A stretch of 64,000 nt of DNA from Lacrimispora xylanolytica (GTDB taxonomy: Bacteria > Bacillota > Clostridia > Lachnospirales > Lachnospiraceae), in NCBI RefSeq assembly GCF_026723765.1, contig NZ_CP113524.1, positions 1,845,001-1,909,000 on the forward strand. The letters are read 5' to 3'. Position numbers and translations under genes: made by a program. Positions 4,474-9,112 of this stretch are shown one piece after another. The notes below the pieces were generated by a model. The model worked only from the letters and a program-made list of their open reading frames with translations. It was not told the origin of the DNA and did not search any database. How positions within the stretch are numbered: the stretch's first letter is position 1; each line of letters begins with the position of its first letter.

Positions 4474-4503
4474 CAGGCAGGTTCCGACGAACCTGCCTGT
4501 TTT
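4474..4503 (+). terminator. Rho-independent terminator after ftsZ
   Basis: An 11-bp perfect stem, CAGGCAGGTTC (4474-4484) with GAACCTGCCTG (4489-4499), a 4-nt loop and a short T-run. It lies 20 nt past the ftsZ stop. The T-run is only four bases, so read-through into the next gene is possible. Confidence 0.75.
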
Positions 4504-4519
4504 GGAAAGGAGTGACAGT

Positions 4520-4846
4520 ATGTCTGATAAATTGAATGATTGGGAAATTTCTGAGGACTATTATGACAGTCAGGAGAAGGGCAAGGAGATGTCTCTGGAG
4601 GATTTTATTCTGGAATCAGATCTTGATCATGGAGAGCTTTTGGCTCCCAGTCCTTCTGATGAGTTATTAAAAAAGACCATTGAGGACGTTCATCAGGTAC
4701 TGGCATTGGCTGGTGAGGGGAAAAATATAAAAGAAATCTCTGCACTTACCGGCCTTGAGGAAACATATGTATATAATATCCAGGTTTGTGCCCAGGGTTT
4801 CCACGAAGATGATGAAATAGCTGTGGCCCATCTGGTACTTGGATAG
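4520..4846 (+). CDS. Uncharacterised acidic protein, 108 aa
   Basis: Not recognised. The start is the ATG at 4520 behind AAAGGAG (4506-4512); an upstream in-frame ATG at 4463 would translate through the ftsZ terminator and is rejected. The N-terminal half is strongly acidic. Residues from about 60 on (E-G-K-N-I-K-E-I-S-A-L-T-G-L-E-E-T-Y-V) look like a helix-turn-helix of the sigma-factor-like or resolvase-like kind, so a DNA-binding or regulatory role is possible but unproven. It is followed directly by the zinc-ribbon membrane protein at 4860, probably in one transcript. Confidence 0.7.
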   Translation: MSDKLNDWEISEDYYDSQEKGKEMSLEDFILESDLDHGELLAPSPSDELLKKTIEDVHQVLALAGEGKNIKEISALTGLEETYVYNIQVCAQGFHEDDEIAVAHLVLG

Positions 4847-4859
4847 GGGGAAGACAAAA

Positions 4860-5951
4860 GTGAAAAGAAAGATATGCCCGGTTTGTGATCTTCCGGTCAA
4901 TGAGGCCAACTTCTGTGCCCGATGCAAAAAGATTATTCGCCGTCCCGTCATATGGGAAATGAATTATTATTTAAATGAAAAGCCGCCTGCAAAGGAAATT
5001 GCACCAATCGGCTCTCAATCGAATGGAACTGCTGAGCAGCCTAAGCTCACAATCTCCTCTCAGCCGGTCAGGACAGGGTCAGCTCAGCCAGCTAAAACCT
5101 TACAGCCAGCAAGAACCATGACACCACCGCGTACAGCGACACCTCCTATGGACGCCCAGCCGCCCAGGGATTACATACCGTCGGGCTCCTCAGTATCGCC
5201 CAAGAAAAAAGTGGGTAGGAGATTTCCTGTTTCCATAGCAGGAATTATTACCTTCCTTTTTATCATAGCTGGTTCTCTGCCTGATATTGCAAAAAAAGCG
5301 GACCGATTTCTGGATAAAGCGAAGGATTACGAAGTTTCATATCCATTTGATGATTCCGGTTTTAAGGACTTAAAGGAAGAGGATGTAAAGGCAGCCGGAA
5401 TTCCCTGCAATGGTTACAATCATTTTCCGGTATCAGGGAAAGAAATCATGGATTCCATGGGACAGTATATTGAGGCGAATTCCTATGGGTTTCTCCTAAA
5501 ACCCCAGGCAGTTTATTCCGATAATTATGAGATGAAAACAGATTCGGGTTCCATATCTTATTATGATACTGTGGAAGGCTATTATCTGGAGGACGAGGTG
5601 ACCAGTCAGCTGACTTCAAAAGATGAGGGATATGTATACCAGTATGTGGAGATCAATTATGACACTGCAACCGGGGAGATGCATGATTATATCTCTTCCA
5701 TAAAAGATAAAGAAGCATCCTTGGCTTATCTGGAGCAGTTTTTAAAGACAACAGAAACGTCCGCTCAGATTCCTTTGGAGGAGAGCAGTGTTCCAGTCAT
5801 TATGGAGCAGGTCAGGGGAGGACTGGAACGGGGAGAGGAAACTATTTTTACTGATGGAATTTTTTCCTTGTATGTATATGAAGAAGATGACACTCTTCAG
5901 GTAACGGTATCCTATAATACCTTACTTTCCACAGAACATGGGGAAACTTAA
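4860..5951 (+). CDS. Zinc-ribbon membrane protein of unknown function
   Basis: Not assigned to a named family. The GTG at 4860 follows AGGGGG (4845-4850); the longer frame from TTG 4839 overlaps the upstream stop codon and is less likely. The 363-aa product starts with a zinc-ribbon motif, C6-P-V-C9 and C19-A-R-C22. A Pro/Thr/Gln-rich linker follows (about 45-115), then one membrane segment (about 123-142) and an acidic C-terminal domain that would lie outside the cell. The layout suggests a cytoplasmic metal-binding head tethered to an extracellular domain. The gene sits between ftsZ and hflK; no function is inferred. Confidence 0.75.
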   Translation: MKRKICPVCDLPVNEANFCARCKKIIRRPVIWEMNYYLNEKPPAKEIAPIGSQSNGTAEQPKLTISSQPVRTGSAQPAKTLQPARTMTPPRTATPPMDAQPPRDYIPSGSSVSPKKKVGRRFPVSIAGIITFLFIIAGSLPDIAKKADRFLDKAKDYEVSYPFDDSGFKDLKEEDVKAAGIPCNGYNHFPVSGKEIMDSMGQYIEANSYGFLLKPQAVYSDNYEMKTDSGSISYYDTVEGYYLEDEVTSQLTSKDEGYVYQYVEINYDTATGEMHDYISSIKDKEASLAYLEQFLKTTETSAQIPLEESSVPVIMEQVRGGLERGEETIFTDGIFSLYVYEEDDTLQVTVSYNTLLSTEHGET

Positions 5952-5981
5952 TCCTTACCAGCAATATACTAAGGGTTTCAT

Positions 5982-6010
5982 TTGACACACAGCTATGGAT
6001 CTGATATAAT
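5982..6010 (+). promoter_or_regulatory. Consensus sigma-A promoter of the riboswitch-hflKC transcript
   Basis: TTGACA (5982-5987), a 17-bp spacer and TATAAT (6005-6010): a perfect consensus. It would start RNA near 6017, a few bases before the Mn2+ aptamer. Confidence 0.85.
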
Positions 6011-6020
6011 AGCTTCAATC

Positions 6021-6118
6021 GTAAAAGGGAGTAGCTGCCAGCATTTGCTGGATAAGATTGCGTCAGAACGGTAAAGTGATTTATCCGCATCCTTATGAAA
6101 TGTGCAAGACTTTTATTG
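6021..6118 (+). ncRNA. yybP-ykoY (manganese) riboswitch aptamer
   Basis: The two conserved strands of this class are present: AAAAGGGAGTAGC at 6023-6035 and GCAAGACTTTTAT at 6104-6116. In the family these read close to AAAGGGGAGUAGC and GCAAGACCUUU. They close the basal helix (6021-6027 with 6110-6116). Between them are a P2-like hairpin CAGC-ATTT-GCTG (6040-6051), an arm closed by GGATAA/TTATCC (6050-6055 and 6080-6085), and a weaker third arm. Other members sense Mn2+ and usually switch genes on. Here the 3' strand of the basal helix is shared with a terminator, which fits an ON switch. The next gene on this strand is hflK. Confidence 0.8.
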
Positions 6119-6150
6119 ATACCGTAAAGGTGTCAATAAAGGTCTTTTTT
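6108..6150 (+). terminator. Terminator of the Mn2+ riboswitch expression platform
   Basis: GACTTTTATTG (6108-6118) pairs over 11 bp (one G-U) with CAATAAAGGTC (6134-6144), followed by six T. Its 5' arm overlaps the 3' strand of the aptamer basal helix, so ligand-bound aptamer and terminator exclude each other. Confidence 0.8.
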
Positions 6151-6335
6151 ATTATATAGGGGGGTATACACCCCTATATAATAAAAAGCATTCCATGCAG
6201 GATGCACATGACGCTTAAGAGGAAGATGTCACTAAAGTGACAGCGCGTCAGTGCCAGAGTCTGACAAGTCAGACTCTTTCTTGTTTCCTTTACGAGAGCA
6301 TAAACATAGAGGGTAAGTAAAGAAAGGAGCACATT
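6144..6335 (+). promoter_or_regulatory. Structured leader segment between riboswitch and hflK
   Basis: The remainder of the 384-bp gap 5952-6335. It holds a near-perfect 18-bp palindrome at 6144-6188, whose left arm includes the T-run of the preceding terminator, centred on GGGG...CCCC. Next is a nested hairpin: GCAC/GTGC (6204-6207, 6251-6254) plus TGACGC/GCGTCA (6209-6214, 6245-6250), enclosing GTCACT-AA-AGTGAC (6228-6241). A 10-bp hairpin follows, AGAGTCTGAC (6256-6265) with GTCAGACTCT (6268-6277), with a T-rich tail resembling a second terminator. I recognise no family for it, and no convincing reading frame lies in it. Confidence 0.55.
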
Positions 6336-7313
6336 ATGGAAACGTTTGATCCTCAAAAAAGAGAGGTATGGAAAAGGATAAAGAAAATCCTTAAGAAGTC
6401 AGGTATCGCAGCCGTTTTATTGGTGGCAGTTCCAGTGATTGGTTTTGGTTCCATATACAACATCCAGGAACAGGAGCAGGCAGTCGTAACGACAATGGGC
6501 AGGCCAAGGGCGGTGACAGATCCGGGGCTTCATTTTAAAGTACCGTTTGTCCAGAAGGTAAAGAAAGTGAACACCACCATTCAGGGATTTGCCATTGGCT
6601 ATAATCCTGACGATAACGAAAGCAAGGAGGAGGATTCTCTGATGATCACCAAAGATTATAATTTCGTTAACGTAGACTTTTTTACAGAGTATAAGGTATC
6701 AGATCCAGTGAAGGCAGTCTATGGCTCAGAGGATCCCCTGAAGGTCTTACAGAGCATTACAAAAAGCTGCATTCGTACCGTGATTGGAAGCTATGATGTG
6801 GATGCCGTATTGACTACTGGAAAGAATGAAATTCAGACAAAGATTAAGCAGATGATCATGGAAAAGCTGGAAGGGCATGAAATAGGCCTTACAGTCGTAA
6901 ATGTGACCATTCAGGATTCTGAACCGCCGACCAAAGAGGTCATGGAAGCCTTTAAGGCAGTAGAAACTGCAAAGCAGGGAAAAGAGACTGCCATTAACAA
7001 TGCAAATAAATACCGCAACGAAAAGCTACCGGAGGCAACCGCTCAGACCGATAAGATATTACAGGATGCAGAATCAACAAAAGCGAAAAGAATCAATGAA
7101 GCCAATGCAGAAGTAGCAAAATTCAATGCGATGTTCATGGAATACGAAAAGAATCCGGAAGTTACGAAAAAGCGAATGTTCTATGAAACCATGGAAAAGG
7201 TACTTCCAAATATGAAAGTCATTATAGACGGAACTGATAAGACCAGCACAATCCTTCCTTTGGATAGCTTCACCGGTGGAGGAAACAGCCCAGAAAAGGA
7301 GAAAACAGAATGA
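6336..7313 (+). CDS. hflK: HflK, SPFH-domain protease modulator
   Basis: Membrane-anchored SPFH/band-7 protein that in other bacteria forms a cage with HflC around the FtsH protease and limits its access to membrane substrates. The 325-aa product has one membrane segment at about residues 23-42 and an SPFH domain starting I-Q-E-Q-E-Q-A-V-V-T-T. A coiled-coil, Ala/Glu/Lys-rich stretch follows (about 205-270). AAAGGAG precedes the ATG. The upstream Mn2+ riboswitch is the unusual part: the transcript must pass its terminator to reach this gene. It overlaps hflC by 4 nt. Confidence 0.9.
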   Translation: METFDPQKREVWKRIKKILKKSGIAAVLLVAVPVIGFGSIYNIQEQEQAVVTTMGRPRAVTDPGLHFKVPFVQKVKKVNTTIQGFAIGYNPDDNESKEEDSLMITKDYNFVNVDFFTEYKVSDPVKAVYGSEDPLKVLQSITKSCIRTVIGSYDVDAVLTTGKNEIQTKIKQMIMEKLEGHEIGLTVVNVTIQDSEPPTKEVMEAFKAVETAKQGKETAINNANKYRNEKLPEATAQTDKILQDAESTKAKRINEANAEVAKFNAMFMEYEKNPEVTKKRMFYETMEKVLPNMKVIIDGTDKTSTILPLDSFTGGGNSPEKEKTE

Positions 7314-8182
7314 AACAGAAACTAAAAAAAGCCGTCCTTGTATTTTTCGCTCTTTTAGCGGTCATCGTATTGTCTGGTTCCCTTGTCGTCACCAATGAAA
7401 ATGAATATAAATTAATACGTCAGTTCGGCCGTGTGGAACGGGTCATAAATACAGCTGGTGTTACTATGAAGATTCCCCTGATACAGACAGCAGATACGCT
7501 GCCAAGACAGATTTTAATTTACGATCTGGCAGCTTCTGATGTCATTACCATGGATAAGAAGACCATGTTAAGTGACAGCTATGTATTATGGAAGATTGAA
7601 GACCCCTTAAGGTTCGCCCAGTCCTTAAATTCTTCCATTGCCAATGCGGAAGGAAGAATTGATACGGTAGTTTATAACTCCGTAAAAAATGTCATCAGCA
7701 GTATGAGCCAGAACGATGTCATCAGCAGCAGAGATGAAGAGCTTTCTCAGGCGATCATGAAGAACGTGGGTGAGAATATGAGCCAGTACGGCATTAAGCT
7801 ACTGGCCGTTGAGACGAAACGTCTGGATCTTCCGGTAGATAACAAAGCAGCGGTGTACGAAAGAATGATATCAGAACGTGATAAAATAGCAGCTACTTAT
7901 ACCGCAGAAGGGCAGGCAGAAGCAAAGAAAATACAAAATACCACAGACAGAGAGATTGCTATCAGCATTTCCGATGCCCAGGCAACGGCTGCATCTGTTA
8001 CAGCTGAGGGAGAGGCAGAGTACATGAGAATCCTGGCGGAGGCTTACAGCAATCCCCAGAGAGCTGATTTTTATTCCTTTATCCGTTCTCTGGAAGCAGC
8101 AAAAACATCTCTTGCCGGCGAAAACAATACCCTGATTCTTCCAGGAAATTCACCGATCGCACAAATTTTTATGGGACGGTAA
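7310..8182 (+). CDS. hflC: HflC, SPFH-domain protease modulator
   Basis: Partner of HflK. The 290-aa product has an N-terminal membrane segment (about residues 8-26), an SPFH domain (E-N-E-Y-K-L-I-R-Q-F-G-R) and an Ala/Glu-rich helical region (about 190-250) with the Y-T-A-E-G-Q-A-E-A pattern typical of HflC. It starts inside the end of hflK (ATGA overlap), so the two are expected at matched levels. No ftsH gene is in this window. Confidence 0.9.
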   Translation: MKQKLKKAVLVFFALLAVIVLSGSLVVTNENEYKLIRQFGRVERVINTAGVTMKIPLIQTADTLPRQILIYDLAASDVITMDKKTMLSDSYVLWKIEDPLRFAQSLNSSIANAEGRIDTVVYNSVKNVISSMSQNDVISSRDEELSQAIMKNVGENMSQYGIKLLAVETKRLDLPVDNKAAVYERMISERDKIAATYTAEGQAEAKKIQNTTDREIAISISDAQATAASVTAEGEAEYMRILAEAYSNPQRADFYSFIRSLEAAKTSLAGENNTLILPGNSPIAQIFMGR

Positions 8183-8204
8183 TTGTTGCAGGAAACAATT
8201 TTTT
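8182..8204 (+). terminator. Weak terminator-like hairpin after hflC
   Basis: ATTGTT (8182-8187) and AACAAT (8194-8199) form a short AT-rich stem followed by six T. It is too weak to be sure of; some read-through into metF is likely. Confidence 0.4.
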
Positions 8205-8254
8205 GTGGTAAAGTGTTAAAAAGATAAAAAGACGAAAGATTGGAGACAGACAGC

Positions 8255-9112
8255 ATGAAGATTAAAGACATTTTGAGCCAGGGAAAGCCGACCTTGTCTT
8301 TTGAAGTTTTCCCCCCTAAGACAGAGGATAAATATGAATCTGTAGAGCGGGCGGCGGCAGAGATTGCGAAGTTAAACCCGGCTTTTATGAGTGTCACCTA
8401 TGGAGCAGGTGGAGGAACCAGCAAATATACGGTTGATATAGCCTCGGCACTGCATCATAATCATCATGTAACGGCACTTGCCCATTTAACCTGTGTATCT
8501 TCTACAAAAGAGAAGGTCCGGGAGGTTCTTCATGAATTAAAGGAGGCTGGCATTGAGAACGTGCTTGCTCTCAGAGGAGATATTCCTCAGGACGGAGCAG
8601 TTTCTAAAGAATACAGCTATGCTTCTGAGCTGATCCGCGAGATTAAGGAAGCAGGAGATTTTTGTATCGGCGCTGCCTGCTATCCGGAAGGTCATGTAGA
8701 GTCTGCCAGCAAAACCATTGATATGGATTATTTAAAACAAAAGGTAGAGGCAGGCTGTGATTTTGTAACCACTCAGATGTTTTTTGATAATAATATATTA
8801 TATAACTATTTATACCGCATACGGGAAAAAGGAATTACAGTCCCGGTCGTTGCAGGAATTATGCCTGTGACCAATGTAAGACAGATTATAAGAAGCTGTC
8901 AGCTCTCCGGAACCTATCTGCCCTCCAGGTTTAAGGCAATTGTAGACCGGTTCGGGGATAATCCGGCAGCCATGAAGCAGGCTGGAATCGCTTATGCGAC
9001 AGAGCAGATCATTGACCTCATCGCAAACGGAGTCAATGCCATTCATGTGTATTCTATGAATAAGCCGGATATTGCATATAAAATTAAGGAAAACTTATCA
9101 GAGATACTATAG
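8255..9112 (+). CDS. metF: Methylenetetrahydrofolate reductase
   Basis: Flavoprotein reducing 5,10-methylene-THF to 5-methyl-THF, the methyl donor for MetH. The ATG at 8255 follows TGGAGA (8241-8246); the longer TTG start at 8240 overlaps that site. The 285-aa product has the family hallmarks F-E-V-F-P-P-K near the N-terminus, S-V-T-Y-G-A-G-G, A-L-R-G-D-I-P and Q-M-F-F-D. In acetogenic and other clostridia MetF may act with partner subunits, but none is adjacent. It leads directly into the MetH-activation and metH genes. Confidence 0.95.
   Translation: MKIKDILSQGKPTLSFEVFPPKTEDKYESVERAAAEIAKLNPAFMSVTYGAGGGTSKYTVDIASALHHNHHVTALAHLTCVSSTKEKVREVLHELKEAGIENVLALRGDIPQDGAVSKEYSYASELIREIKEAGDFCIGAACYPEGHVESASKTIDMDYLKQKVEAGCDFVTTQMFFDNNILYNYLYRIREKGITVPVVAGIMPVTNVRQIIRSCQLSGTYLPSRFKAIVDRFGDNPAAMKQAGIAYATEQIIDLIANGVNAIHVYSMNKPDIAYKIKENLSEIL

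Follow-up and report, generated by a model that had tools for sequence, protein, structure and literature searches.

Does a riboswitch of the yybP-ykoY class control hflK and hflC in Lacrimispora xylanolytica? The targets described for Mn2+ riboswitches are mainly metal transporters, and HflKC modulates the membrane protease FtsH. The window considered here (the whole stretch of DNA that was analyzed, 64,000 nucleotides) contains a leader (Table 1) that we interpret, with a probability of about 0.8, as a transcriptional yybP-ykoY-class Mn2+ riboswitch controlling the hflK-hflC operon. The riboswitch class is already known; the hflKC target is new, and the core of the element is divergent.

Table 1. 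Features of the hflK-hflC leader and operon (window coordinates)
Feature	Position	Strand	Basis
Promoter TTGACA-N17-TATAAT with extended TG	5982..6010	+	12/12 consensus matches
Divergent yybP-ykoY (Mn2+-type) riboswitch aptamer, three-way junction without P4	6018..6120	+	Model R1, 37.6 bits over 6019-6117; fold
Switch helix P1.1, 5' strand (partner, 6110-6120)	6018..6027	+	Fold, pair count
Loop L1, 5' strand GGGAGUA	6027..6033	+	Sequence; A6030 is the counterpart of A10
Loop L3, GUCAGAAC	6062..6069	+	Sequence; A6065 is the counterpart of the invariable Mn-contacting adenosine
P1.1, 3' strand, also the terminator 5' arm	6110..6120	+	Folds
Intrinsic terminator (18-pair stem, 6106-6146, followed by T run)	6106..6150	+	Fold, terminator scan
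Repeat insertion between riboswitch and hflK (~130 bp, copies elsewhere in genome)	6152..6284 (approximate)	+	Genome search; L001 vs L003
Terminator-like hairpin within repeat	6256..6277	+	Terminator scan
Segment complementary to P1.1 5' strand and L1 start (6019-6022, 6024-6030), third competing strand	6285..6295	+	-11.2 kcal/mol; in whole-leader MFE
hflK, 325 aa, regulated gene	6336..7313	+	TIGR01933, 238.3 bits (cutoff, 159.4); Band_7
hflC, 290 aa, overlaps hflK end	7310..8182	+	TIGR01932, 170.4 bits (cutoff, 134.4)

An earlier note on this DNA had described a perfect consensus promoter, the two conserved strands of the yybP-ykoY aptamer, and a terminator that uses the 3' strand of the basal helix as its 5' arm, with hflK next on the strand and then hflC, and all of these elements are present as described; both genes score above the cutoffs of their family models. 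The class to which the note assigned the element and its connection with hflK-hflC are likewise upheld. The promoter has its -35 hexamer, TTGACA, at 5982-5987 and its -10 hexamer, TATAAT, at 6005-6010, with a spacer of 17 nt. In a promoter scan it was the only 12/12 promoter within 4500-9000, and no promoter-like site with at least 9 of 12 matches was found on the plus strand between 6010 and the hflK start at 6336. The same promoter, with 12/12 matches and the TG, is present at 17/17 hflK-linked sites of the genus. Loop L1 has a GGGGAGUA-type 5' strand at 6027-6033 and the (A/G)AGAC-type 3' strand at 6106-6110 (AAGAC), as in other members of the class, and C6086 also belongs to L3.

The minimum-free-energy structure of 6018-6120 alone contains the basal helix (6018-6027/6110-6120) together with the P2 and P3 stems. 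With downstream bases added, strand 6110-6120 moves into the terminator at 6106-6146, the fold of which (-43.5 kcal/mol; z = -4.65) was as low in none of 200 shuffles. P1.1 and the terminator are mutually exclusive helices, and the location of the P1.1 3' strand inside the terminator is a trait of the transcriptional members of the class. The two helices have a common strand in 32/32 hflK-linked sites, all 32 of which have terminator arms of the AAGACTTTT...GTCTTTT type. The four-way junction with P4 that is characteristic of the crystal structures is absent, as only the 7 nt GAAAUGU (6097-6103) separate P3 from P1.2. Since P4 is also missing in the exporter-linked training sites L017 and L029, it was treated as a variable rather than a defining trait.

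Recognition by a covariance model, which the earlier note expected of RF00080, was obtained with a purpose-built model and not with the Rfam one. RF00080 gave no match at its gathering cutoff (45 bits) in the whole window, none at E ≤ 10 on 5900-6400 or on 6015-6125, and none in the L. xylanolytica genome. This miss is not decisive, because 0/196 genomes of the order pass the cutoff, though sub-threshold sites precede MntP and cation ATPase genes. Sites with an E value of ≤0.001 were found in 22 of the 196 genomes; on 14 control genomes, the model detected sites in 3 to 5 and exceeded the cutoff in 2. All 26 sub-threshold sites of the order precede cation exporter genes (GDT1/UPF0016, 10; P-type ATPase, 7; Na/Ca exchanger, 6; MntP, 3). 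Model R1 was built from these 26 sites, none of which is from the family of the window, and it matches the window at 6019-6117 (37.6 bits; E = 1.5e-6), with an E value of 1.1e-4 for the same element in the 4.5-Mb genome. R1 also detects 16/16 genus loci previously retrieved by DNA match and links the element by homology to sites that precede Mn/cation exporters. As a yardstick, it gives the Escherichia coli mntP riboswitch a similar score (34.4 bits) and alx a weak one (17.2 bits). Unlike the element described here, the mntP riboswitch has been described as translational and linked to Rho-dependent termination (PMC11647493), and model R2, of the hflK type, does not recognize it. A riboswitch subtype that is frequent in the Lachnospiraceae falls below the current Rfam cutoff, and its targets are probably undercounted.

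The failure of RF00080 is one of two observations that would fit an unrelated terminator with a few matching motifs and no riboswitch, the other being that the 103-nt aptamer (6018-6120), folded alone, has an energy no better than that of shuffles (z = -0.56). However, such a chance resemblance is extremely improbable and is already contradicted by the genome-wide R1 score, by the conserved loops, by recurrence of the element upstream of hflK in sense orientation (24 of 80 named hflK loci by R1), and by covariation across genera. Among 87 family sites, in an alignment fitted to the model structure, 95.8% of cells pair and the covariation score is 0.381 versus 0.161 in shuffles, with 0/500 as high; in the same model-fitted alignment, 9 pairs changed on both sides versus 7.1 in shuffles, with 33/500 as high. 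Within the genus, covariation is thin: P1.1 is without any two-sided change, one P1.1 pair is broken in 8/13 distinct rows, and the two terminator pairs with two-sided changes were equaled by 308/500 shuffles. Matches to MIR1120, Srn266, and similar Rfam models at relaxed thresholds were regarded as random matches to a strong hairpin, and weak R1 matches in L143/L209 (17.2 bits) and L126 (14.7 bits) were inspected and rejected.

The identity of the ligand can be approached through the residues of the core. In solved structures, A10 of L1 docks onto P3.1, and the Mn-contacting adenosine is invariable (A41 in Lactococcus lactis and A48 in Xanthomonas oryzae; PMC6754395). L3 of the window element has this adenosine at A6065, and its counterpart is A in 27/27 hflK-linked rows (23 distinct sites, as four are contained twice) and in 85/87 family rows. 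Positions G9-G16 and C87-C92 of L1 are invariant across 22 hflK-linked rows. The core pair adjoining L3 is more variable. It is U.G in 26/26 training sites and G-C in the window element; in the 22-row hflK alignment, it is G-C in 14, A.C in 6, C-G in 1, U.U in 1, and U.G in none, with a further hflK row (L323) having U.G in a model-fitted alignment. In KUP-linked rows, U.G is replaced in 7/7.

These replacements, together with the failure of RF00080, could point to a variant with the same fold and switch that responds to another divalent ion (Mg2+, Ca2+, Fe2+, or Co2+) and is tied to hflK, KUP, and OadB rather than to Mn export. Published accounts leave room for this: one review considers yybP variants with altered specificity likely, which would account for genes at odds with Mn2+ (PMC7266159), another describes loose specificity with binding of Co2+, Cd2+, and Ni2+ (PMC11477304), and a streptococcal aptamer is reported to bind Ca2+ more tightly than Mn2+ (PMC9495176). 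However, the Mn-contacting adenosine and L1 are kept at the hflK-linked sites, and the loss of U.G is not special to hflK, as U.G is found in only 13/33 ATPase-linked and 4/11 exchanger-linked family rows of a model-fitted alignment, counts that are incomplete because alignment A4 leaves some canonical rows gapped at the core pair (17/67 ATPase rows over A4 and A5). Because the remaining 20/33 and 7/11 rows are also without it, U.G does not define the class. A separate ligand class for hflK and KUP based on its loss (26/26 versus 0/22) was considered and is weakened by this variation among exporter-linked sites of the same family. Furthermore, the L3 sequence GUCAGNAC and a core without U.G are also found before P-type ATPases of the same family (L253, G-C; L243, U.U), so the ligand is probably common to hflK-linked and exporter-linked sites. 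A change of specificity thus seems unlikely, and judged from these residues, the ligand is very probably Mn2+.

The association with hflK is conserved among close relatives, in line with the pairing that the earlier note proposed to look for. In a DNA search, the leader turned up in 16 of 61 relatives; each of the 16 belongs to the genus and carries it before hflK. The gene is present in 20 of 25 genus genomes; all 17 close orthologues (≥77% identity) have the element, and the 3 divergent ones (51 to 53%) do not. The pairing recurs in Hungatella and other Lachnospiraceae, and carriers among the named loci include Lacrimispora xylanisolvens, L. amygdalina, Hungatella hathewayi, and H. effluvii. 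An intact site is absent from the other 56 of the 80 named loci, which include 2 with decayed aptamers (L148 and L165), 1 terminator-only relic, and 5 that are cut within 480 nt upstream. Among 200 sampled family genomes, 68 have hflK, with an R2 site directly upstream in 8 (by coordinates, G000, G258, G262, G279, G311, G358, G363, and G392) and none in 60; the stricter filters of the genome-wide R2 scan can lose weak sites, and the R1 search of hflK neighborhoods covered 29 of the 67 genomes other than that of the window, with the remainder resting on the R2 scan. A site at a contig end makes G328 a possible ninth. Because 56/80 named loci and 60/68 hflK-bearing family genomes are without an intact site, HflKC does not generally depend on it.

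On a tree of 102 hflK rows (the 80 named ones and 22 others chosen by the analyst), presence of the riboswitch requires 8 changes when scored on 97 rows (31 with and 66 without it; decayed copies scored as present and the 5 cut loci set aside), compared with 25 to 29 in the first five of 200 label shuffles. At L143, about 1890-1950, the terminator of an hflK leader remains without promoter and aptamer directly after the upstream gene, which could be either a decay relic or an assembly artifact. L148, L165, and L143 look like loss in progress. Just upstream of the leader in the window, positions 4839-5951 encode a protein with CxxC motifs near its N terminus and with no Pfam or NCBIfam match; homologues (E ≤ 1e-5) are encoded upstream of the hflK leader in 15/16 genus loci.

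The strain of the window carries a repeat insertion between the terminator and hflK. The end of the repeat is palindromic, and a genome search gave 14 matches, a number that counts the query and its own palindrome as well. By spacer length, the repeat is present at 3 of 17 genus sites (L001, L002, and L083). It may dampen read-through, and the hairpin within it (6256-6277) is a possible unconditional attenuator in this strain. The repeat therefore bears on a further explanation, namely, that the riboswitch is real but hflKC is expressed mostly by constitutive read-through or from another start, with little effect of Mn2+ in this strain; the terminator without promoter and aptamer at L143 and the decayed aptamers at L148 and L165 also fit it. 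We consider this doubtful, as there is no promoter-like site from 6010 to hflK, the end of the aptamer lies only 81 to 92 nt from the hflK start in 12/17 genus sites, and promoter and switch are conserved at all 17.

Control of hflKC by the switch may involve more than the two exclusive helices. The segment that follows the repeat (6285-6295) pairs more strongly with the P1.1 5' strand and the start of L1 than the P1.1 partner does as an isolated duplex (-11.2 versus -5.0 kcal/mol). A partner of this kind is located between the terminator and the hflK start in 19 of 32 hflK-linked sites, at a strength reached by ≤2/200 shuffles that preserve base composition only; it is clearly missing in L004, L140, L214, and L323, and the region taken for the test was cut short in L083. 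Matching changes are seen on the two sides (UCGU/ACGA, UCGC/GCGA, and UCAC/GUGA; AAAAG/CUUUU and AAGAG/CUCUU), while the P1.1 3' strand remains CUUUUA, so that C.A or G.U pairs result. When whole regions were re-dealt among 26 distinct sites, 0/5000 permutations were as low as the observed arrangement (-292.5 versus a mean of -230.5; standard deviation, 7.9; relatedness uncorrected). This test replaces an earlier swap test that was biased because each segment had been picked for its own 5' strand.

The complement is most frequent in hflK leaders. With a 120-nt region and the same threshold, it was found in 13/19 hflK leaders and in 8/62 ATPase, 2/14 OadB, 1/19 exchanger, and 1/12 unnamed-protein leaders, with 0/14 for MntP, 0/9 for GDT1, 0/4 for KUP, 0/3 for CNNM, 0/2 for flotillin, and 0/1 for Band_7. 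ATPase leaders with a similar complement include L087, L096, and L106. Since 6285-6295 is transcribed after the termination decision, the third strand cannot affect it. Our guess is that it has a role in the read-through mRNA, closing the 5' end or serving as a later Mn-dependent control step.

The same switch precedes a range of other genes. R1 finds four sites at E ≤ 10 in the L. xylanolytica genome: two before P-type ATPases, one before the potassium transporter KUP, and one before hflK. Over the genus, it finds 80 sites in 24 of 25 genomes, and the 77 that were typed precede genes for P-type ATPase (29), hflK (17), MntP (14), KUP (7), OadB-like proteins (7), and Na/Ca exchanger (3); the others are L048 and L105, which were not parsed, and L082, with a spurious open reading frame. 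R2 sites are present in 89 of 200 family genomes. The 87 family loci, counted besides the two of the genome of the window and the L231 site and leaving out sites with an E value of ≥2.6e-6, precede P-type ATPase (34), an unnamed small protein (14), Na/Ca exchanger (13), OadB-like protein (8), hflK (6), CNNM (3), flotillin-like protein (2), and one each of another Band_7 protein, Na/Pi cotransporter, YccF, AI-2E, CitMHS, and an unnamed protein, with 1 untyped (L239, at a contig end). Genes were typed by the first downstream open reading frame of ≥100 aa (first residue set to M), BLAST clusters, and Pfam naming of representatives; for L306, L297, L298, L244, L242, and L290, tblastn or visual inspection was used.

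Three SPFH types are found behind the switch: HflKC, flotillin-like proteins (L267 and L299), and another Band_7 protein (L308). The flotillin-like protein of L299 scores 257 bits against the FloT model, below the cutoff of 700, and the L267 protein shares 50% identity with it.

Several of the other associations are with genes outside metal export. The KUP-linked Mn-type riboswitch of the L. xylanolytica genome is at L045 1501-1617 (C1:4324153-4324269), and the 7 KUP-linked sites of the genus have a G-C core pair and AUCA in L3. OadB-like genes, for a Na+-decarboxylase beta subunit, follow the switch at 7 genus and 8 family sites (L062, L066, L074, L076-L079, L249, L251, L271, L274, L284, L294, L307, and L311). 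The small protein, of ~140 to 180 aa, is encoded behind 14/87 family sites (L245, L260, L268, L280, L287, L291, L292, L295, L297, L306, L309, L316, L318, and L322); neither Pfam nor NCBIfam gave a match for a representative, L280, and the small protein is a candidate for a new Mn-response protein family.

Compared with the RF00080/L. lactis yoaB type, a transcriptional on-switch, the window element is alike in L1 (GGGAGUA/AAGAC), in the invariable adenosine of L3, and in the strand common to P1.1 and the terminator. It differs in the absence of P4, in a G-C rather than U.G core pair, in falling below Rfam detection, in having hflKC rather than an exporter as its target, and in the extra segment complementary to P1.1 beyond the terminator. 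Bacillus subtilis ykoY (meeY) is likewise a Mn-riboswitch gene, for which genetics and copurification provide a link to FtsH and flotillins (PMC10550928); however, the riboswitch of B. subtilis controls a TerC protein, whereas the one described here precedes the SPFH partners of FtsH themselves. A literature search found no work joining yybP-ykoY with hflK or a Mn2+ riboswitch with HflC, nor any placing the switch before HflKC and flotillin-like genes, although Dambach 2015, Price 2015, and Martin 2019 may mention hflK.

The direction of the switch can be proposed from known members. Mn2+ stabilizes P1.1 and prevents termination (PMC6754395, PMC11087558), and the L. lactis riboswitch has been called a "Mn2+-specific genetic ON-switch" (PMC9190785); a review names Mn2+ riboswitches "OFF" switches (PMC11477304). 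Since the anatomy found here is that of the PMC6754395/PMC11087558 type, we infer an on-switch that acts by antitermination. RNA polymerase would start near 6017. At high free Mn2+, the ion would bind between L1 and L3, with an expected contact at A6065, and would stabilize P1.1 (6018-6027/6110-6120), so that 6110-6120 would be unavailable to the terminator (6106-6146) and transcription would proceed into hflKC. At low Mn2+, the terminator would form and transcription would stop near 6150. In the read-through RNA, 6285-6295 could displace the P1.1 partner at the 5' strand; coming too late to influence termination, this pairing more probably serves to close the mRNA 5' end or to provide a later layer of control.

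Physiologically, Mn2+ overload would lead to more HflKC and an adjustment of FtsH, by which mismetalated, jammed, or surplus membrane proteins would be cleared. Reports from other bacteria provide a setting for this proposal. In B. subtilis, FtsH is described as essential in the absence of both TerC proteins MeeF and MeeY, the latter encoded by a gene with a Mn riboswitch, and the copurifying proteins listed include FtsH, FloT, and FloA (PMC10550928). YqgP and FtsH degrade MgtE, with cleavage increasing when Mg is low and Mn or Zn is high (PMC7231995), and overexpression of MntP is toxic to E. coli, which the authors attribute to membrane effects (PMC11647493). A joint rise of HflKC and exporters would be consistent with a protective effect on the membrane under Mn stress. 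A broader proposal is that the Mn2+ regulon of the Lachnospiraceae has, besides exporters, a membrane-proteostasis arm made up of HflKC, flotillin-like proteins, and another Band_7 protein, with the third strand as a second control step on the hflK read-through mRNA; for this proposal as a whole, we see the odds as evenly balanced.

If it is true, bacteria of this family meet Mn2+ overload both by export and by a quality control, linked to FtsH, that covers membrane and secreted proteins; KUP, OadB-like proteins, and the unnamed small protein family would be further nonexporter arms of the response. A switch that is conserved upstream of HflKC and also stands, in other members of the family, upstream of flotillin-like genes would put membrane-protein quality control inside the Mn response. 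It would also make it testable why FtsH of B. subtilis becomes essential when delivery of Mn to exported proteins fails.
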